DNA of 35,171 bases from positions 2,943-38,113 of the forward strand of contig PLMS01000070.1 in assembly GCA_003142575.1 (NCBI GenBank), read 5' to 3'. Shown in pieces: positions 23,413-27,604 of the stretch. Every line of letters begins with the position of its first letter. Position 1 is the first letter of the stretch. This DNA is from Ignavibacteriota bacterium. GTDB lineage: Bacteria; Bacteroidota; Ignavibacteria; UBA10030. The position numbers and the translations under genes were made by a program. The notes beneath the pieces are model-generated. The model made no database searches and was not told the DNA's origin. It saw only the letters and a list, made by a program, of their open reading frames with translations.

Positions 23413-23440
23413 GGTTACCTGTTTCGAGTCTTTCAGTATC
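23413..23440. repeat. Single-ended copy of the GAGT-type repeat near gpmA
   Basis: GGTTACC, then GTTTCGAGTCTTTCAGTATC, lies between the gpmA start and the metH stop. It shares GTTTCGAGTCTTT with the copy inside metH and CAGTATC with the copy beside the four-helix-bundle gene. It looks like half of the two-armed unit. Confidence 0.5.
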
Positions 23441-23494: not shown

Positions 23495-26400
23495 TTATTT
23501 TATGTTAAAATATCTTGCTTCCGGATGATGAACAATAATCGCATCTGTCGATTGCTCGGGATTTAACATGAACTCGTCCGTCATAGTGACACCAATGCGT
23601 TCCGGCTTCAATAACTCAAAGAGTTTAACGTGGTCTTCCAGATTGGGACAAGCGGGATAACCGAAGCTGAACCGCGAACCTTGATATCCTTGACTGAACA
23701 ACCGTCTGATCTCCGGCGCATCTTTACCGGCAATTCCCAGCTCTTCACGAATCTTTTTGTGACACAGTTCTGCAAGCGCTTCCGCTGATTCAACACTCAA
23801 TCCGTGGAAATACAGGTAATCCTTATATTCATTTGAATCAAAAAGCTTCTTTGAGTATTCGGAAGCGGCTTTTCCCATTGTTACCATATGGAAAGCAACG
23901 ACATCGACCTTCCCGGAACTCGCCGGTGCAAAATAATCACTGATGCACAAGAAACGGTCGTCCTTCTGGCGCGGGAAAGTGAAACGCAGCCATTCTGTGA
24001 GAGGAAGAAGTTTTGAGTTTTGAGTTTCGAGTCTTTGAGTTTTATCAACTCGCAACTCTTTACTCGTAACTTCTTTTGGGTTATAAATGATGAGATCATT
24101 TCCATCCGACTGGCACGGGAAGTATCCATACACCATCTTCGGCTGAAGCAATTTATTATTTTTTATTTTTGACTTAAGCGCCTCATATTCAGGATATATT
24201 TTCTCTGAGAGCAATTTCCTGTATTCTTCCTCTGATGATTTACCGCGAACAACGCGCCACTGTCCACGAATCAGCGCTGTTTCATTGACGTACTTAAATA
24301 TTTCATCTAACGAAATATCTTCTGTAACCTTCGAACCCCAGAATGGCGGTTTTGGAATTTCAACGTCCGTCCGGATCTTTGATCGCTTTGGCGTCTTCTC
24401 GTCTTCCGCAAGCATGAGCGCAATCTTTGCTTCCGTTCCGATCAGAACTTCCTCTTGATCTACTTCCACCTCCTGTTTTCCATTTCCTATCTTTTCGCTT
24501 TTTATTGCTTCCATCTGGTGTAAGCCGTCGAAAGCATCATTCGCGTAGAAGACTTGTCCTTTGTACACCGATTTCAAATCTTGTTCGACATATCGTCGTG
24601 TCAGCGCCGCACCGCCAAGGATTACAGGAATCGTGAGGTTTTGTTCGTTCAGGACTTCCAGATTCTCTTTCATAACGAGTGTCGACTTCACTAATAATCC
24701 GCTCATTCCTATGGCGTCAGCATTGTGTTCCTGTACCGCGTGAATCATCGTCTCGATCGGACATTTAATGCCCAGATTAATCACCTTATAGCCATTGTTT
24801 GTAAGAATGATGTCCACGAGATTTTTACCAATATCGTGCACGTCTCCCTTCACCGTGGCAATCACCATCGTGCCCTTCTGACCCTGCTCCTTCTTTTCCA
24901 TCAGCGGCTCAAGGTGTGCCACTGCCGATTTCATCACTTCCGCAGAGAGAAGCACAAAGGGCAGCTGCATCTGTCCGGAACCAAAGAGATCGCCAACAAC
25001 TTTCATCCCATCCAGCAAAATGGTGTTAATGATTTCCAAAGGAGAAAATTTCTTGAGCGCTTCATCAAGATCGGAGTTCATTCCGACTTTGTTTCCGTCA
25101 ATGATTCGGTTCTTCAACCGTTCTTCAATAGTACCGCTAACAACTTTCGACTCTTTTTCTTCCTTTTTCTTACCGGCAAAATGCGCCATAAATTCCGTTA
25201 ACGGATCAAAGACAAGTCTCTTGTTTTCACCTTCACCTTCAAAACGCCGTTCATCAAACACGAGCTGCCGCGCTAGTTCGCGGCCCTTCTCATCAATTTT
25301 ATAAAGCGGAAGTATCTTTGAGGTGTGCACAATCGCCATATCAAGTCCGGCTTCAATGGCATAGTGCAAGAATACGCTGTTCAACACCTGACGTGATACC
25401 GGAGACAAACCAAATGAAACATTACTGACCCCTAAGGAAGTATGAACATCCGGAAATTCCTTTTTGATAAGTCGGAGTGACTTGATGGTCTCTATCGCCG
25501 AACGGCGGAATTCTTCATCGCCGGAACCCAGTGTGAACGTCAACGGGTCAAAAATGAGATCGTGCGGCTTCATCTTGTATTTGTTGACAACAAGATCATA
25601 GATGCGTTTGGCTATAGCAAGTTTAGATTCTGCTGTCTTCGCCATACCCTGTTCATCGATCGTAAGCGCGATAACAGCGGCGCCGTATTTTTTGCACAAC
25701 GGCACAATCTTGTTGATGCGCTCTTCGCCATCTTCCATATTGATGGAGTTGATGACCGCCTTGCCTGCAATATATTGCAGTGCTTCTTCGATGACGTTTG
25801 CTTCCGTGGAATCGATAACCAACGGAATGGTGATCTGCTTATTGAAGCGCGTAAGGATCTCACGCATATCTGCTGCTTCGTTTCGCCCAACATATGCTGC
25901 GCAGACATCGAGCATGTGCGCGCCTTCTTTCACCTGCTCGCGTCCCATCGCTACGATAGCTTCCCACTCTTCCTTTGCTAAGAGGTCGCGGAAGAGCTTA
26001 CTGCCGTTGGCATTGGTGCGTTCACCAATGAGCGTTGGCGGATTATCAACACGGAACGGAGCAGACTGGTACAAACTCGATGCGCCCGGAATAAATTCAT
26101 ACGTGCGCTTCTTCGGGGCAAGATTCCCTACCGCCTGCACCACTTGACGAATGTGCTCTGGCGTGGTGCCGCAACAGCCGCCGACAACACTGACACCAAG
26201 GTCTTTCACAAAGTGCGAAAGATATTGCGTCATCTCCTCCGGCGAAAGATGATATTGTGCATGCCCGCCAACATTTTCGGGTATCCCTGCGTTTGGCATC
26301 ACAAAGACCGGCTTTGGACTGCTCTCAACCAGCGTTCGCACGTGCTCAGACATTTCTTTTGGTCCGGTTGCACAATTGATCCCGATGACATCGATGTCAT

Positions 26401-27043
26401 AAGGTTCAAGACTTGTAAGTGCGGCAGAAATTTCTGTGCCGAGCAACATTGTCCCCATCGATTCGATTGTCACAGAAACAATGACCGGAACGCGACGATG
26501 TGCTTGCTCGAAATATTCGAAGATACCATAGAGCGCTGACTTTGCCTGGAGGACATCCTGACATGTCTCGACGCACAACAGATCGACACCGCCTTCAACC
26601 AAACCTTTTACTTGCTCGTGAAACGACGCTGCCATTTCTTTGAAGCTAATATGTCCAAGCGAAGGCAGTTTCGTCGTCGGTCCCAGCGAACCGGCAACAA
26701 ACCGTTGATGTCCATTGTTGGAATAATCCTGAGCAATCCGCTTTGCAATTTGTGCAGCTTTGAAGTTCAATTCGTATGCGCGGTCCTGCAAACCATACTC
26801 TGCCAGCACAATACTCGCACCGCCGAAAGAATTCGTCTCGATAACATCGCATCCGGTTTCTAAGTAATCACGATGCACCTTCTCAACCGCTGACGGCTGA
26901 GAGACAACAAGATACTCGTTACAACCATCGTAATGCTCGCCGCCGAAGTCGTCTGCGGTAAGATTTTGCCCTTGCAGGTGTGTTCCCGTCGCACCGTCAA
27001 AGACGATGATTTTTTGTTTTAATATGTTGAGGAAAGAATTCAA
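23495..27043 (-). CDS. metH: Cobalamin-dependent methionine synthase, with a repeat-encoded insertion
   Basis: An 1182-residue enzyme that methylates homocysteine from methyl-tetrahydrofolate. All modules are present. The homocysteine domain has zinc ligands Cys223 (GINCATGP) and Cys290-Cys291 (GGCCGTTP). The pterin domain contains LIGERTNANGSKLF. The B12 cap is followed by the cobalamin-binding DVHDIG, with axial ligand His736. The reactivation domain ends RFSFGYPACPNLEDH. The activation domain carries about 25 residues, roughly 991-1015 (VTSKELRVDKTQRLETQNS and following), that are encoded by a repeat found elsewhere as intergenic DNA; relatives pass almost directly from the IIYNP region to RFTFPRQ. 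Start is TTG at 27043, inside another repeat copy and without a ribosome site; no ATG or GTG precedes FDGATGT in frame. Confidence 0.95.
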   Translation of the reverse strand: MNSFLNILKQKIIVFDGATGTHLQGQNLTADDFGGEHYDGCNEYLVVSQPSAVEKVHRDYLETGCDVIETNSFGGASIVLAEYGLQDRAYELNFKAAQIAKRIAQDYSNNGHQRFVAGSLGPTTKLPSLGHISFKEMAASFHEQVKGLVEGGVDLLCVETCQDVLQAKSALYGIFEYFEQAHRRVPVIVSVTIESMGTMLLGTEISAALTSLEPYDIDVIGINCATGPKEMSEHVRTLVESSPKPVFVMPNAGIPENVGGHAQYHLSPEEMTQYLSHFVKDLGVSVVGGCCGTTPEHIRQVVQAVGNLAPKKRTYEFIPGASSLYQSAPFRVDNPPTLIGERTNANGSKLFRDLLAKEEWEAIVAMGREQVKEGAHMLDVCAAYVGRNEAADMREILTRFNKQITIPLVIDSTEANVIEEALQYIAGKAVINSINMEDGEERINKIVPLCKKYGAAVIALTIDEQGMAKTAESKLAIAKRIYDLVVNKYKMKPHDLIFDPLTFTLGSGDEEFRRSAIETIKSLRLIKKEFPDVHTSLGVSNVSFGLSPVSRQVLNSVFLHYAIEAGLDMAIVHTSKILPLYKIDEKGRELARQLVFDERRFEGEGENKRLVFDPLTEFMAHFAGKKKEEKESKVVSGTIEERLKNRIIDGNKVGMNSDLDEALKKFSPLEIINTILLDGMKVVGDLFGSGQMQLPFVLLSAEVMKSAVAHLEPLMEKKEQGQKGTMVIATVKGDVHDIGKNLVDIILTNNGYKVINLGIKCPIETMIHAVQEHNADAIGMSGLLVKSTLVMKENLEVLNEQNLTIPVILGGAALTRRYVEQDLKSVYKGQVFYANDAFDGLHQMEAIKSEKIGNGKQEVEVDQEEVLIGTEAKIALMLAEDEKTPKRSKIRTDVEIPKPPFWGSKVTEDISLDEIFKYVNETALIRGQWRVVRGKSSEEEYRKLLSEKIYPEYEALKSKIKNNKLLQPKMVYGYFPCQSDGNDLIIYNPKEVTSKELRVDKTQRLETQNSKLLPLTEWLRFTFPRQKDDRFLCISDYFAPASSGKVDVVAFHMVTMGKAASEYSKKLFDSNEYKDYLYFHGLSVESAEALAELCHKKIREELGIAGKDAPEIRRLFSQGYQGSRFSFGYPACPNLEDHVKLFELLKPERIGVTMTDEFMLNPEQSTDAIIVHHPEARYFNIK
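24015..24070. repeat. Two-armed repeat inserted in frame within metH
   Basis: Plus strand: the left arm includes GAGTTTCGAGTCTTTGAGTT (24022-24041); the right arm is AACTCGCAACTCTTTACTCG (24047-24066), then TAAC. The arms are imperfect inverted copies around TTATC. The building blocks GAGTTTCGAGT and ACTCGTAAC match the ends that flank the four-helix-bundle gene. The reading frame is kept and no stop is introduced. Confidence 0.75.
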
Positions 27044-27048
27044 AGTCG

Positions 27049-27074
27049 CGAGTTTCCAGTATCGAGTTACGAGT
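27049..27074. repeat. Left inverted end of the four-helix-bundle cassette
   Basis: Plus strand CGAGTTTCCAGT, then ATC, then GAGTTACGAGT. It is the inverted counterpart of 27468-27494, with one mismatch and a 3-versus-4-base centre. It overlaps the stop codon of the four-helix-bundle gene and ends 6 bases before the metH start on the other side. Confidence 0.7.
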
Positions 27075-27432
27075 CGGAATCACTACTGATTGTACGTTCG
27101 AGAGAAAGAAGCATTTTGCGAACTTCAATGAGTTGATTGTTCAACAATTCGTATTTTTCACTTTTCAAGTAGTCCAAATCCTTTGAGAGAACCAGAAAAT
27201 ATTCAACTTCATTTGTCGAGCCGAGCGACATCGTCAAGAAGCGGGCAAAATCTGGTTTTGTCTTTCTTCCGGCTCCTTCGACAATGTTTGCAGCAATAGA
27301 CACAGCAGCACGACGAAGTTGTGAAGTTACTCCATAAAGCTCATCCTTTGGAAAACCCTTCGTAATCACATATATGTCAATTACCAGTTTATGTGCTTTT
27401 TGCCAGACCAATAACTTTCGATAATCTTGCAT
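27067..27432 (-). CDS. Four-helix-bundle protein (S23/IVP family)
   Basis: A 121-residue protein of the family first found in intervening sequences of 23S rRNA genes. Landmarks are YRKLLVWQKAHKLVIDIY, FPKDELYGVTSQLRRAAVSI, AANIVEGAGRKT and the late FLVLSKDLDYL helix. Relatives include the Avd-like bundle of diversity-generating retroelements. Its activity is unknown; the fold binds nucleic acid in some members. GGAGGGG seven bases before the ATG supports the start. Its last residues (SDSDS) are partly encoded by the flanking repeat. No rRNA gene, reverse transcriptase or variable repeat is nearby, so the usual contexts are absent. Here the context is a pair of inverted repeats, which suggests a mobile or passenger gene. 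Confidence 0.88.
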   Translation of the reverse strand: MQDYRKLLVWQKAHKLVIDIYVITKGFPKDELYGVTSQLRRAAVSIAANIVEGAGRKTKPDFARFLTMSLGSTNEVEYFLVLSKDLDYLKSEKYELLNNQLIEVRKMLLSLERTISSDSDS

Positions 27433-27467
27433 AAGTTCCCCTCCAACTCAAGAACTTGTTACACTGA

Positions 27468-27494
27468 ACTCGTAACTCAACAACTGGTAACTCG
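27468..27494. repeat. Right inverted end of the four-helix-bundle cassette
   Basis: Plus strand ACTCGTAACTC, then AACA, then ACTGGTAACTCG. Reversed and complemented it reads CGAGTTACCAGT-TGTT-GAGTTACGAGT, which matches 27049-27074 at 22 of 23 positions outside the short centre. It lies 35 bases upstream of the gene's start codon. Confidence 0.7.
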
Positions 27495-27604
27495 AAACTG
27501 TATTAATTTACGAAAGAAAGAGATGGAGAGCAATGTTAGGTACGAAACTAATATTTCTTTGAAGTCAGACTACCATAGAACTCAGTCGGCAACAGCCGAT
27601 ATTT

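Follow-up and report, generated by a model that had tools for sequence, protein, structure and literature searches.

Selfish palindromes that lie in frame within protein-coding genes are best known from Rickettsia. The RPEs, as described in the available excerpts of PMC10969869, are palindromic sequences of ~150 bp, in ten sequence families, that are found in frame in unrelated genes, where they are translated and apparently tolerated. Repeats of the REP/MITE kind are short palindromes scattered between the genes of the chromosome and occasionally found inside genes (excerpts of PMC3733652 and PMC10969869), and a MITE has terminal inverted repeats and several near-identical copies per genome. 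Inverted repeats in protein-coding genes also occur in Nematomorpha, there in animal mitochondria, as perfect repeats of up to 284 bp for which no link with intergenic repeats is evident in the excerpts of PMC6649704. In 23S rRNA, an intervening sequence with an S23/IVP frame has a stem of inverted arms around a PF05635-type gene; that of Coxiella contains an IVP-type gene and is cleaved by RNase III (excerpts of PMC4990558). In the literature searched, seen in part and exclusive of bioRxiv and most subscription papers, we found no earlier account of in-frame phrase palindromes in Ignavibacteria or of free-standing IVP genes flanked by inverted phrase arms.

The window analysed here, i.e. the whole stretch of 35,171 nucleotides from contig PLMS01000070.1, belongs to a 3.28 Mb draft genome in 152 contigs (G000, contig C126) and contains a metH gene with a palindrome in its reading frame. 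The named relatives, whose MetH is identical to G004, G005 and G006 in the tree, place the genus in Ignavibacteriota. The features in and beside metH are the following:

23495–27043, minus strand: metH, cobalamin-dependent methionine synthase of 1182 aa with a TTG start (TIGR02082, 1368.1 bits)
Residues 939–1181 of MetH: Met_synt_B12 domain
24007–24073, no strand assigned: gene-less palindromic GAGT/ACTC phrase element in metH, corresponding to residues 991–1013
24047–24075, minus strand: first hairpin arm, 5' on the metH mRNA, from RNA and DNA folding
24005–24033, minus strand: second hairpin arm, 3' on the metH mRNA, from RNA and DNA folding
23413–23440, no strand assigned: borderline candidate for another phrase copy, downstream of metH (score reached by 2 of 300 shuffles)

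The metH element has the trait typical of RPEs, namely an in-frame palindrome in a coding gene that is absent from a close orthologue, that of the sister species G005. By analogy with the excerpted descriptions of RPEs, it may work in the same way, a likeness of manner that does not imply membership of an RPE sequence family. With 67 nt in metH and roughly 25–190 nt overall, the repeats described here differ in size from RPEs, and unlike these they comprise many unrelated phrase sequences of 7–8-nt words, return to the same loops and have similar arms around IVP genes.

The metH element and its place in the protein

GAGT/ACTC words make up the element, an imperfect palindrome of 67 nt located by exact match and predicted from both RNA and DNA folding to form a long, interrupted hairpin over 24005–24075, with eight paired bases at its outer ends and imperfect arms inside. 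The RNA fold reaches −24.2 kcal/mol, compared with −9.63 (SD 2.47) for 200 dinucleotide shuffles (z −5.90), none of which was as stable, and with DNA parameters the z-score is −5.97, again with 0/200 shuffles as good. The metH loop contains seven GAGT/ACTC words, against a mean of 1.92 under synonymous recoding (equalled in 7 of 20,000 recodings), and 21 self-similar 6-mer pairs, against 3.7 after synonymous recoding and 3.3 after base shuffling (p 0.0005 in both cases). Given their rarity under synonymous recoding, these words and this self-similarity are a structure of the DNA, not a by-product of the protein. The initial annotation, which had described an intergenic-type repeat translated in frame within metH, with two inverted arms and no gene, is borne out on each of these points, and its span of residues 991–1015 comes close to the one measured.

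The sister species G005, whose MetH is 92% identical to that of G000 and which groups with it in the tree (96/80), has a loop of 13 codons versus 31 in G000. The segment is missing from the nearest relative, the comparison by which the annotation had proposed to check it, and the flanks that it had called conserved align on both sides. The G005 loop itself differs from that of G000 and contains some phrase-like words (p 0.023 in the IVP-flank library test described below), so that an exact empty site and a target duplication cannot be read from it; that G005 is also singled out by this test argues against simple presence or absence.

In the protein, the segment links two strands, those of DLIIY and LRFTFPRQ. 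An AlphaFold2 model of the MetH piece (32-sequence alignment, mean pLDDT 81.5, pTM 0.80) aligns with the reactivation domain of Thermus (8sse; Z 33.5, rmsd 1.9, 273 residues) and with the Escherichia coli domain (1msk; Z 28.7, rmsd 2.2, 270 residues), and structure matches beyond MetH activation domains (Z ≤4.5) were set aside. Residues 146–160 of the modelled piece, between strands 132–136 and 166–171, have pLDDT <50. In the prediction, the segment is the unstructured tip of a beta-hairpin of the activation domain. Of the surface loop claimed by the annotation, the loop at a hairpin tip is recovered in the model aligned to 1msk, and its surface position is probable.

By eye, the TTG start of metH adjoins an IVP arm (window 27043–27075), with ATG at the matching place in G005, and in G004 and G008 GAGT phrases extend into the metH start codon. 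SAM_alpha riboswitches were detected upstream of metH in G008 (L018 1352–1427) and G004 (L019 1348–1423), and no Rfam match at the gathering threshold was found in the window or in the metH locus of G005 (L017).

Phrase repeats in the MetH and UvrC loops of relatives

A MetH match was present in 82 genomes, of which 57 were examined, yielding 52 parsed loops and five unparsed ones (L159, L160, L169, L179 and L187). Control segments of the same length from nearby coding DNA were obtained for 49 of the 52. By base shuffling at p<0.01, nine MetH loops were self-similar (G000, G008, G026, G029, G031, G034, G035, G036 and G045, from families f1, f2 and f4), compared with 0/49 control segments. All nine also reached p<0.01 under synonymous recoding, where about 0.5 of 52 would be expected by chance, and at a synonymous p<0.05 the counts were 11/52 loops and 2/49 controls. 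The G008 loop has TTTCGAATTTCGAATTT followed by an inverted counterpart; those of G031, G026 and G029 contain TTTCG/CGAAA phrases, G031 on the strand opposite to the other two; those of G035 and G036 contain AAATCC phrases and that of G045 AATCCGC phrases; and the G034 loop is a composite with two TCCGCC..GGCGGA palindromes. Loops that look alike by eye in G006, G015, G016, G025, G027 and G044 did not reach p<0.01, and GTGAGCGAAGTCGAACC, part of the G027 loop, was dropped as support, having a single match in that genome. Where repeats occur, their sequence and size vary between genomes and, judged by phrase and strand, at least five separate acquisitions would have taken place in the MetH loop. 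The annotation had held that the same segment with unrelated codons in many homologues would speak against an inserted element; this proved true in an unexpected form, several species holding other phrase repeats there.

Ordinary variation in loop length, with the repeat-like DNA arising by chance or from the amino acids encoded, would agree with a loop that spans 10 to 49 residues across the order and with the 43 of 52 loops that show no repeat signal at a base-shuffle p<0.01. It leaves unaccounted for the nine loops that beat their synonymous recodings and the contrast with the controls, and we regard it as highly improbable. We also considered that the hairpin is kept for a function in the metH mRNA, such as RNase III cleavage or slowed translation, being regulatory and only incidentally translated. 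The strong predicted RNA hairpin is in line with such a role, as is the RNase III cleavage of the IVP-type intervening sequence of Coxiella (excerpts of PMC4990558). Against it, the sister species lacks the hairpin, in families f5 and f6 all 13 parsed loops have 10 residues (by the ruler that gives 33 in G000) and hold no repeat, and neither sequence nor size is conserved among the repeat-bearing loops, which makes this function very unlikely.

A loop of UvrC is a second site with phrase repeats, and T9SS tails also carry a phrase. UvrC was matched in 10/10 genomes; nine of the ten loci were read using a motif (L249, in the own genome, was missed) and six were tested statistically, two of which, in G035 and G038, were self-similar. 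In the G035 loop, a palindromic TCCGCC..GGCGGA repeat lies between DGGKGQL and IPIIGLAK (p 0.001–0.002), and the G038 loop, of 62 residues, has GAGTTACGAGTTTCGAGTT and an inverted counterpart around another phrase (p 0.001). With its GAGT arms, the G038 loop scored 20 against the metH element on one strand, the best of 300 shuffles reaching 11. The loops of G034 and G042 are similar by eye, and shorter ones occur in G005, G008, G032, G033 and G036, the last four of which were tested for self-similarity and were not significant. Since G000 is a draft in 152 contigs and its relatives are drafts as well, a misjoin of an intergenic repeat into metH of a metagenome-assembled genome has to be weighed; with the frame maintained through the element, and comparable in-frame repeats in other genomes, from several genera and in two genes, an assembly artefact is barely conceivable.

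The loop phrases were also searched for elsewhere in the genomes. TTTCGNATTTCGNATTT had 95 matches, distributed over 56 places and 16 of the 32 family genomes; its reversed control had none in any. All 56 places were read, in two readings with slightly different length limits: 38 lie outside a long open frame and 18 inside, the latter comprising four MetH loops, four T9SS sorting tails, one tRNA-U5-methyltransferase-like gene (L119) and nine unclear cases. The Por_Secre_tail matches of the four tails were above the curated cut-off in two cases and below it in two. AATCCGCCTNNGGCGGA had 11 matches in G034, two in the MetH loop and the other nine at eight places, with no control match. In G008 and G031, the only exact match of the own phrase is the MetH loop itself.

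Several of these places showed further particulars. L135, one of the 38 non-frame places, appears by eye to be a fifth T9SS tail. TTTCG phrases are in frame in the T9SS C-terminal sorting tails (NPFNPTTNFEFRISNF...) of L124, L133, L134, L135 (by eye) and L216, followed in L124 and L133 by TCCGCC..GGCGGA palindromes. L204 (G014 C32:12807–12983) has six TTTCG phrase matches at a regular 32-nt spacing. At L233, a reading frame that we take to be GxxExxY-like overlaps a AATCCGCCT palindrome, and frames presumably of the same type lie near metH of G014 and G013 (L038 5197–5652 and L039 5216–5653).

These distributions bear on an origin in place, by which slippage would multiply a 7–8-nt word, template switching would invert it, and only unconstrained loops would keep the product, with no mobile DNA involved. 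The variation of the phrases by species and locus, the lack of near-identical copies, the lone exact phrases of G008 and G031 and the largely locus-specific arms of IVP genes (see below) all suit this account. It is harder to reconcile with one phrase at 56 places in 16 genomes and no control matches, with a 17-nt palindrome pattern that the G034 loop has in common with eight other places in its genome, and with GAGT words shared across two families by the G038 UvrC loop and the metH loop. We consider an origin in place possible but not probable; insertion is favoured over slippage, and the DNA would have arrived by insertion rather than arisen where it stands.

The IVP cassette and other GAGT copies

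Upstream of metH, a gene is bracketed by two further copies of the GAGT phrase:

27067–27432, minus strand: IVP/four-helix-bundle (23S rRNA IVP) gene, immediately upstream of metH and in the same orientation
27049–27075, no strand assigned: metH-facing GAGT phrase arm of the cassette, overlapping the last codons of the IVP gene
27453–27497, no strand assigned: second GAGT phrase arm, inverted, beyond the other end of the IVP gene

The IVP gene matches PF05635 (134.9 bits) and TIGR02436 (129.3 bits), and the Avd model with 32.6 bits, under its cut-off of 80. PF05635 resembles Avd of diversity-generating retroelements (excerpts of PMC10053308), a resemblance that makes an RNA route thinkable and nothing beyond that. 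The 23S rRNA intervening sequence in the excerpts of PMC4990558 likewise has inverted arms around a PF05635-type gene, but the cassette here adjoins the 5' end of metH, outside rRNA (the window gave no Rfam match at the gathering threshold), and the metH-internal element is gene-less.

PF05635 matches over the cut-off were found in all 32 family genomes searched. The inverted-arm test covered 25 of 33 IVP loci, short or N-containing ones having been dropped and L013, at a contig end, excluded, and was significant in 19 of the 25, with p 0.005 for the locus beside metH (L011). In 17/25, the same-locus arm score exceeded the 95th percentile of cross-locus pairings, compared with 0/25 for outer controls; the inverted arms of IVP genes are largely locus-specific. 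Among the sampled relatives of the metH-side IVP, the nearest is 57% identical, so that no recent copy of the cassette is seen. A tblastn search with this IVP gave no match beside metH in the loci of relatives that were searched, including G005, where both GAGT features, cassette and loop element, are missing; their joint absence fits local spread without proving it.

The annotation had named three further GAGTT/ACTCG sites, which came out weaker than described: the two IVP arms each outscored all 300 shuffles against the metH element on at least one strand (on one strand of one arm, 1/300 shuffles reached the score), and 23413–23440 stayed borderline. No near-identical second copy of the metH element was found in G000 (next-best blastn match E 0.54), which confirms, for near-identical copies, the lack of other genomic copies that the annotation had seen as counting against it. 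Its term 'MITE-like derivative' implies a defined family of such copies and is not upheld, there being none in G000 and no target-site duplication evident at the element in comparison with G005, whose loop offers no clean empty site. The element shares terminal inverted repeats with MITEs (its eight outer paired bases), and differs from the REP/MITE kind in lacking a single sequence consensus; rather than copying a defined repeat, it belongs to a looser class of short palindromes made of 7–8-nt phrases.

Two simpler patterns were dropped: the exact 11-mer GAGTTWCGAGT as evidence on its own (10 matches versus 7 for the reversed control) and ACTCN{2,5}ACTCN{2,5}ACTC as evidence of enrichment in the own genome (19 versus 41 for a reversed control able to match the same arrays). 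Nine GAGT-phrase places in G000 comprise seven that are intergenic by eye, one transposase gene (L097) and one probable chance match inside a long frame. The L097 gene (1467–3017, G000 C68) has a Mu-transposase C-terminal domain and an N-terminus coded by ACTC phrases, and is matched in 1/32 family genomes at E≤1e-20; a reading of this second in-frame GAGT case of G000 as XseA was rejected given the Pfam assignment.

A link between TTTCG phrases and IVP genes does not hold as a rule, an IVP gene being close to the phrase at only 2/58 loci, one of which (L193) is bracketed by inverted arms. A word test of the MetH loops against a library of IVP flanks gave p<0.05 in 3/52 (G000, G031 and G005), as many as with a control library, and fails as a general test. 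The G000 loop was the strongest (41 versus 13.7 expected, p 0.001; control library p 0.82), with a library that included the IVP flanks of this window. Open reading frames averaged 3.7 of 6 in 19 IVP arms and 4.8 of 6 in 11 coding elements, of unequal lengths, which is suggestive of a greater frame openness in the coding elements.

Origin of the loop repeats and significance

We consider it probable that intergenic hairpin phrase repeats have landed in frame, recurrently, in permissive enzyme loops. A short hairpin phrase repeat of the type found between genes and bracketing IVP genes would have come in frame into metH, and would have been kept because the tip of the beta-hairpin loop tolerates extra residues without harm and the frame used is free of stops. 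The MetH and UvrC loops may then be recurrent permissive acceptor sites that acquired differing phrase repeats on several occasions among related genera, with purifying selection presumably restricting the repeats to such loops. Recent transposition within G000, G008 and G031 is a poor fit, given that G000 has no near-identical copy and that the loop is the only exact phrase match in the other two.

IVP cassettes and solo palindromes probably form one class. In a more far-reaching form of this idea, the IVP (Avd-like) cassettes would be a gene-bearing hairpin class whose arms are rewritten at each site, the MetH and UvrC palindromes would be their gene-less offspring, possibly spread through RNA, with fixed protein loops serving repeatedly as landing sites, and the cassette 3 kb away would be the source of the metH element; we hold this to be rather unlikely.

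For this uncultured environmental lineage, the palindromes found at the same MetH and UvrC loops in different genera amount to a replicated comparative experiment on whether an intergenic hairpin can become protein, and the largely locus-specific inverted arms provide a handle on the role of the IVP protein and on the spread of intervening sequences.
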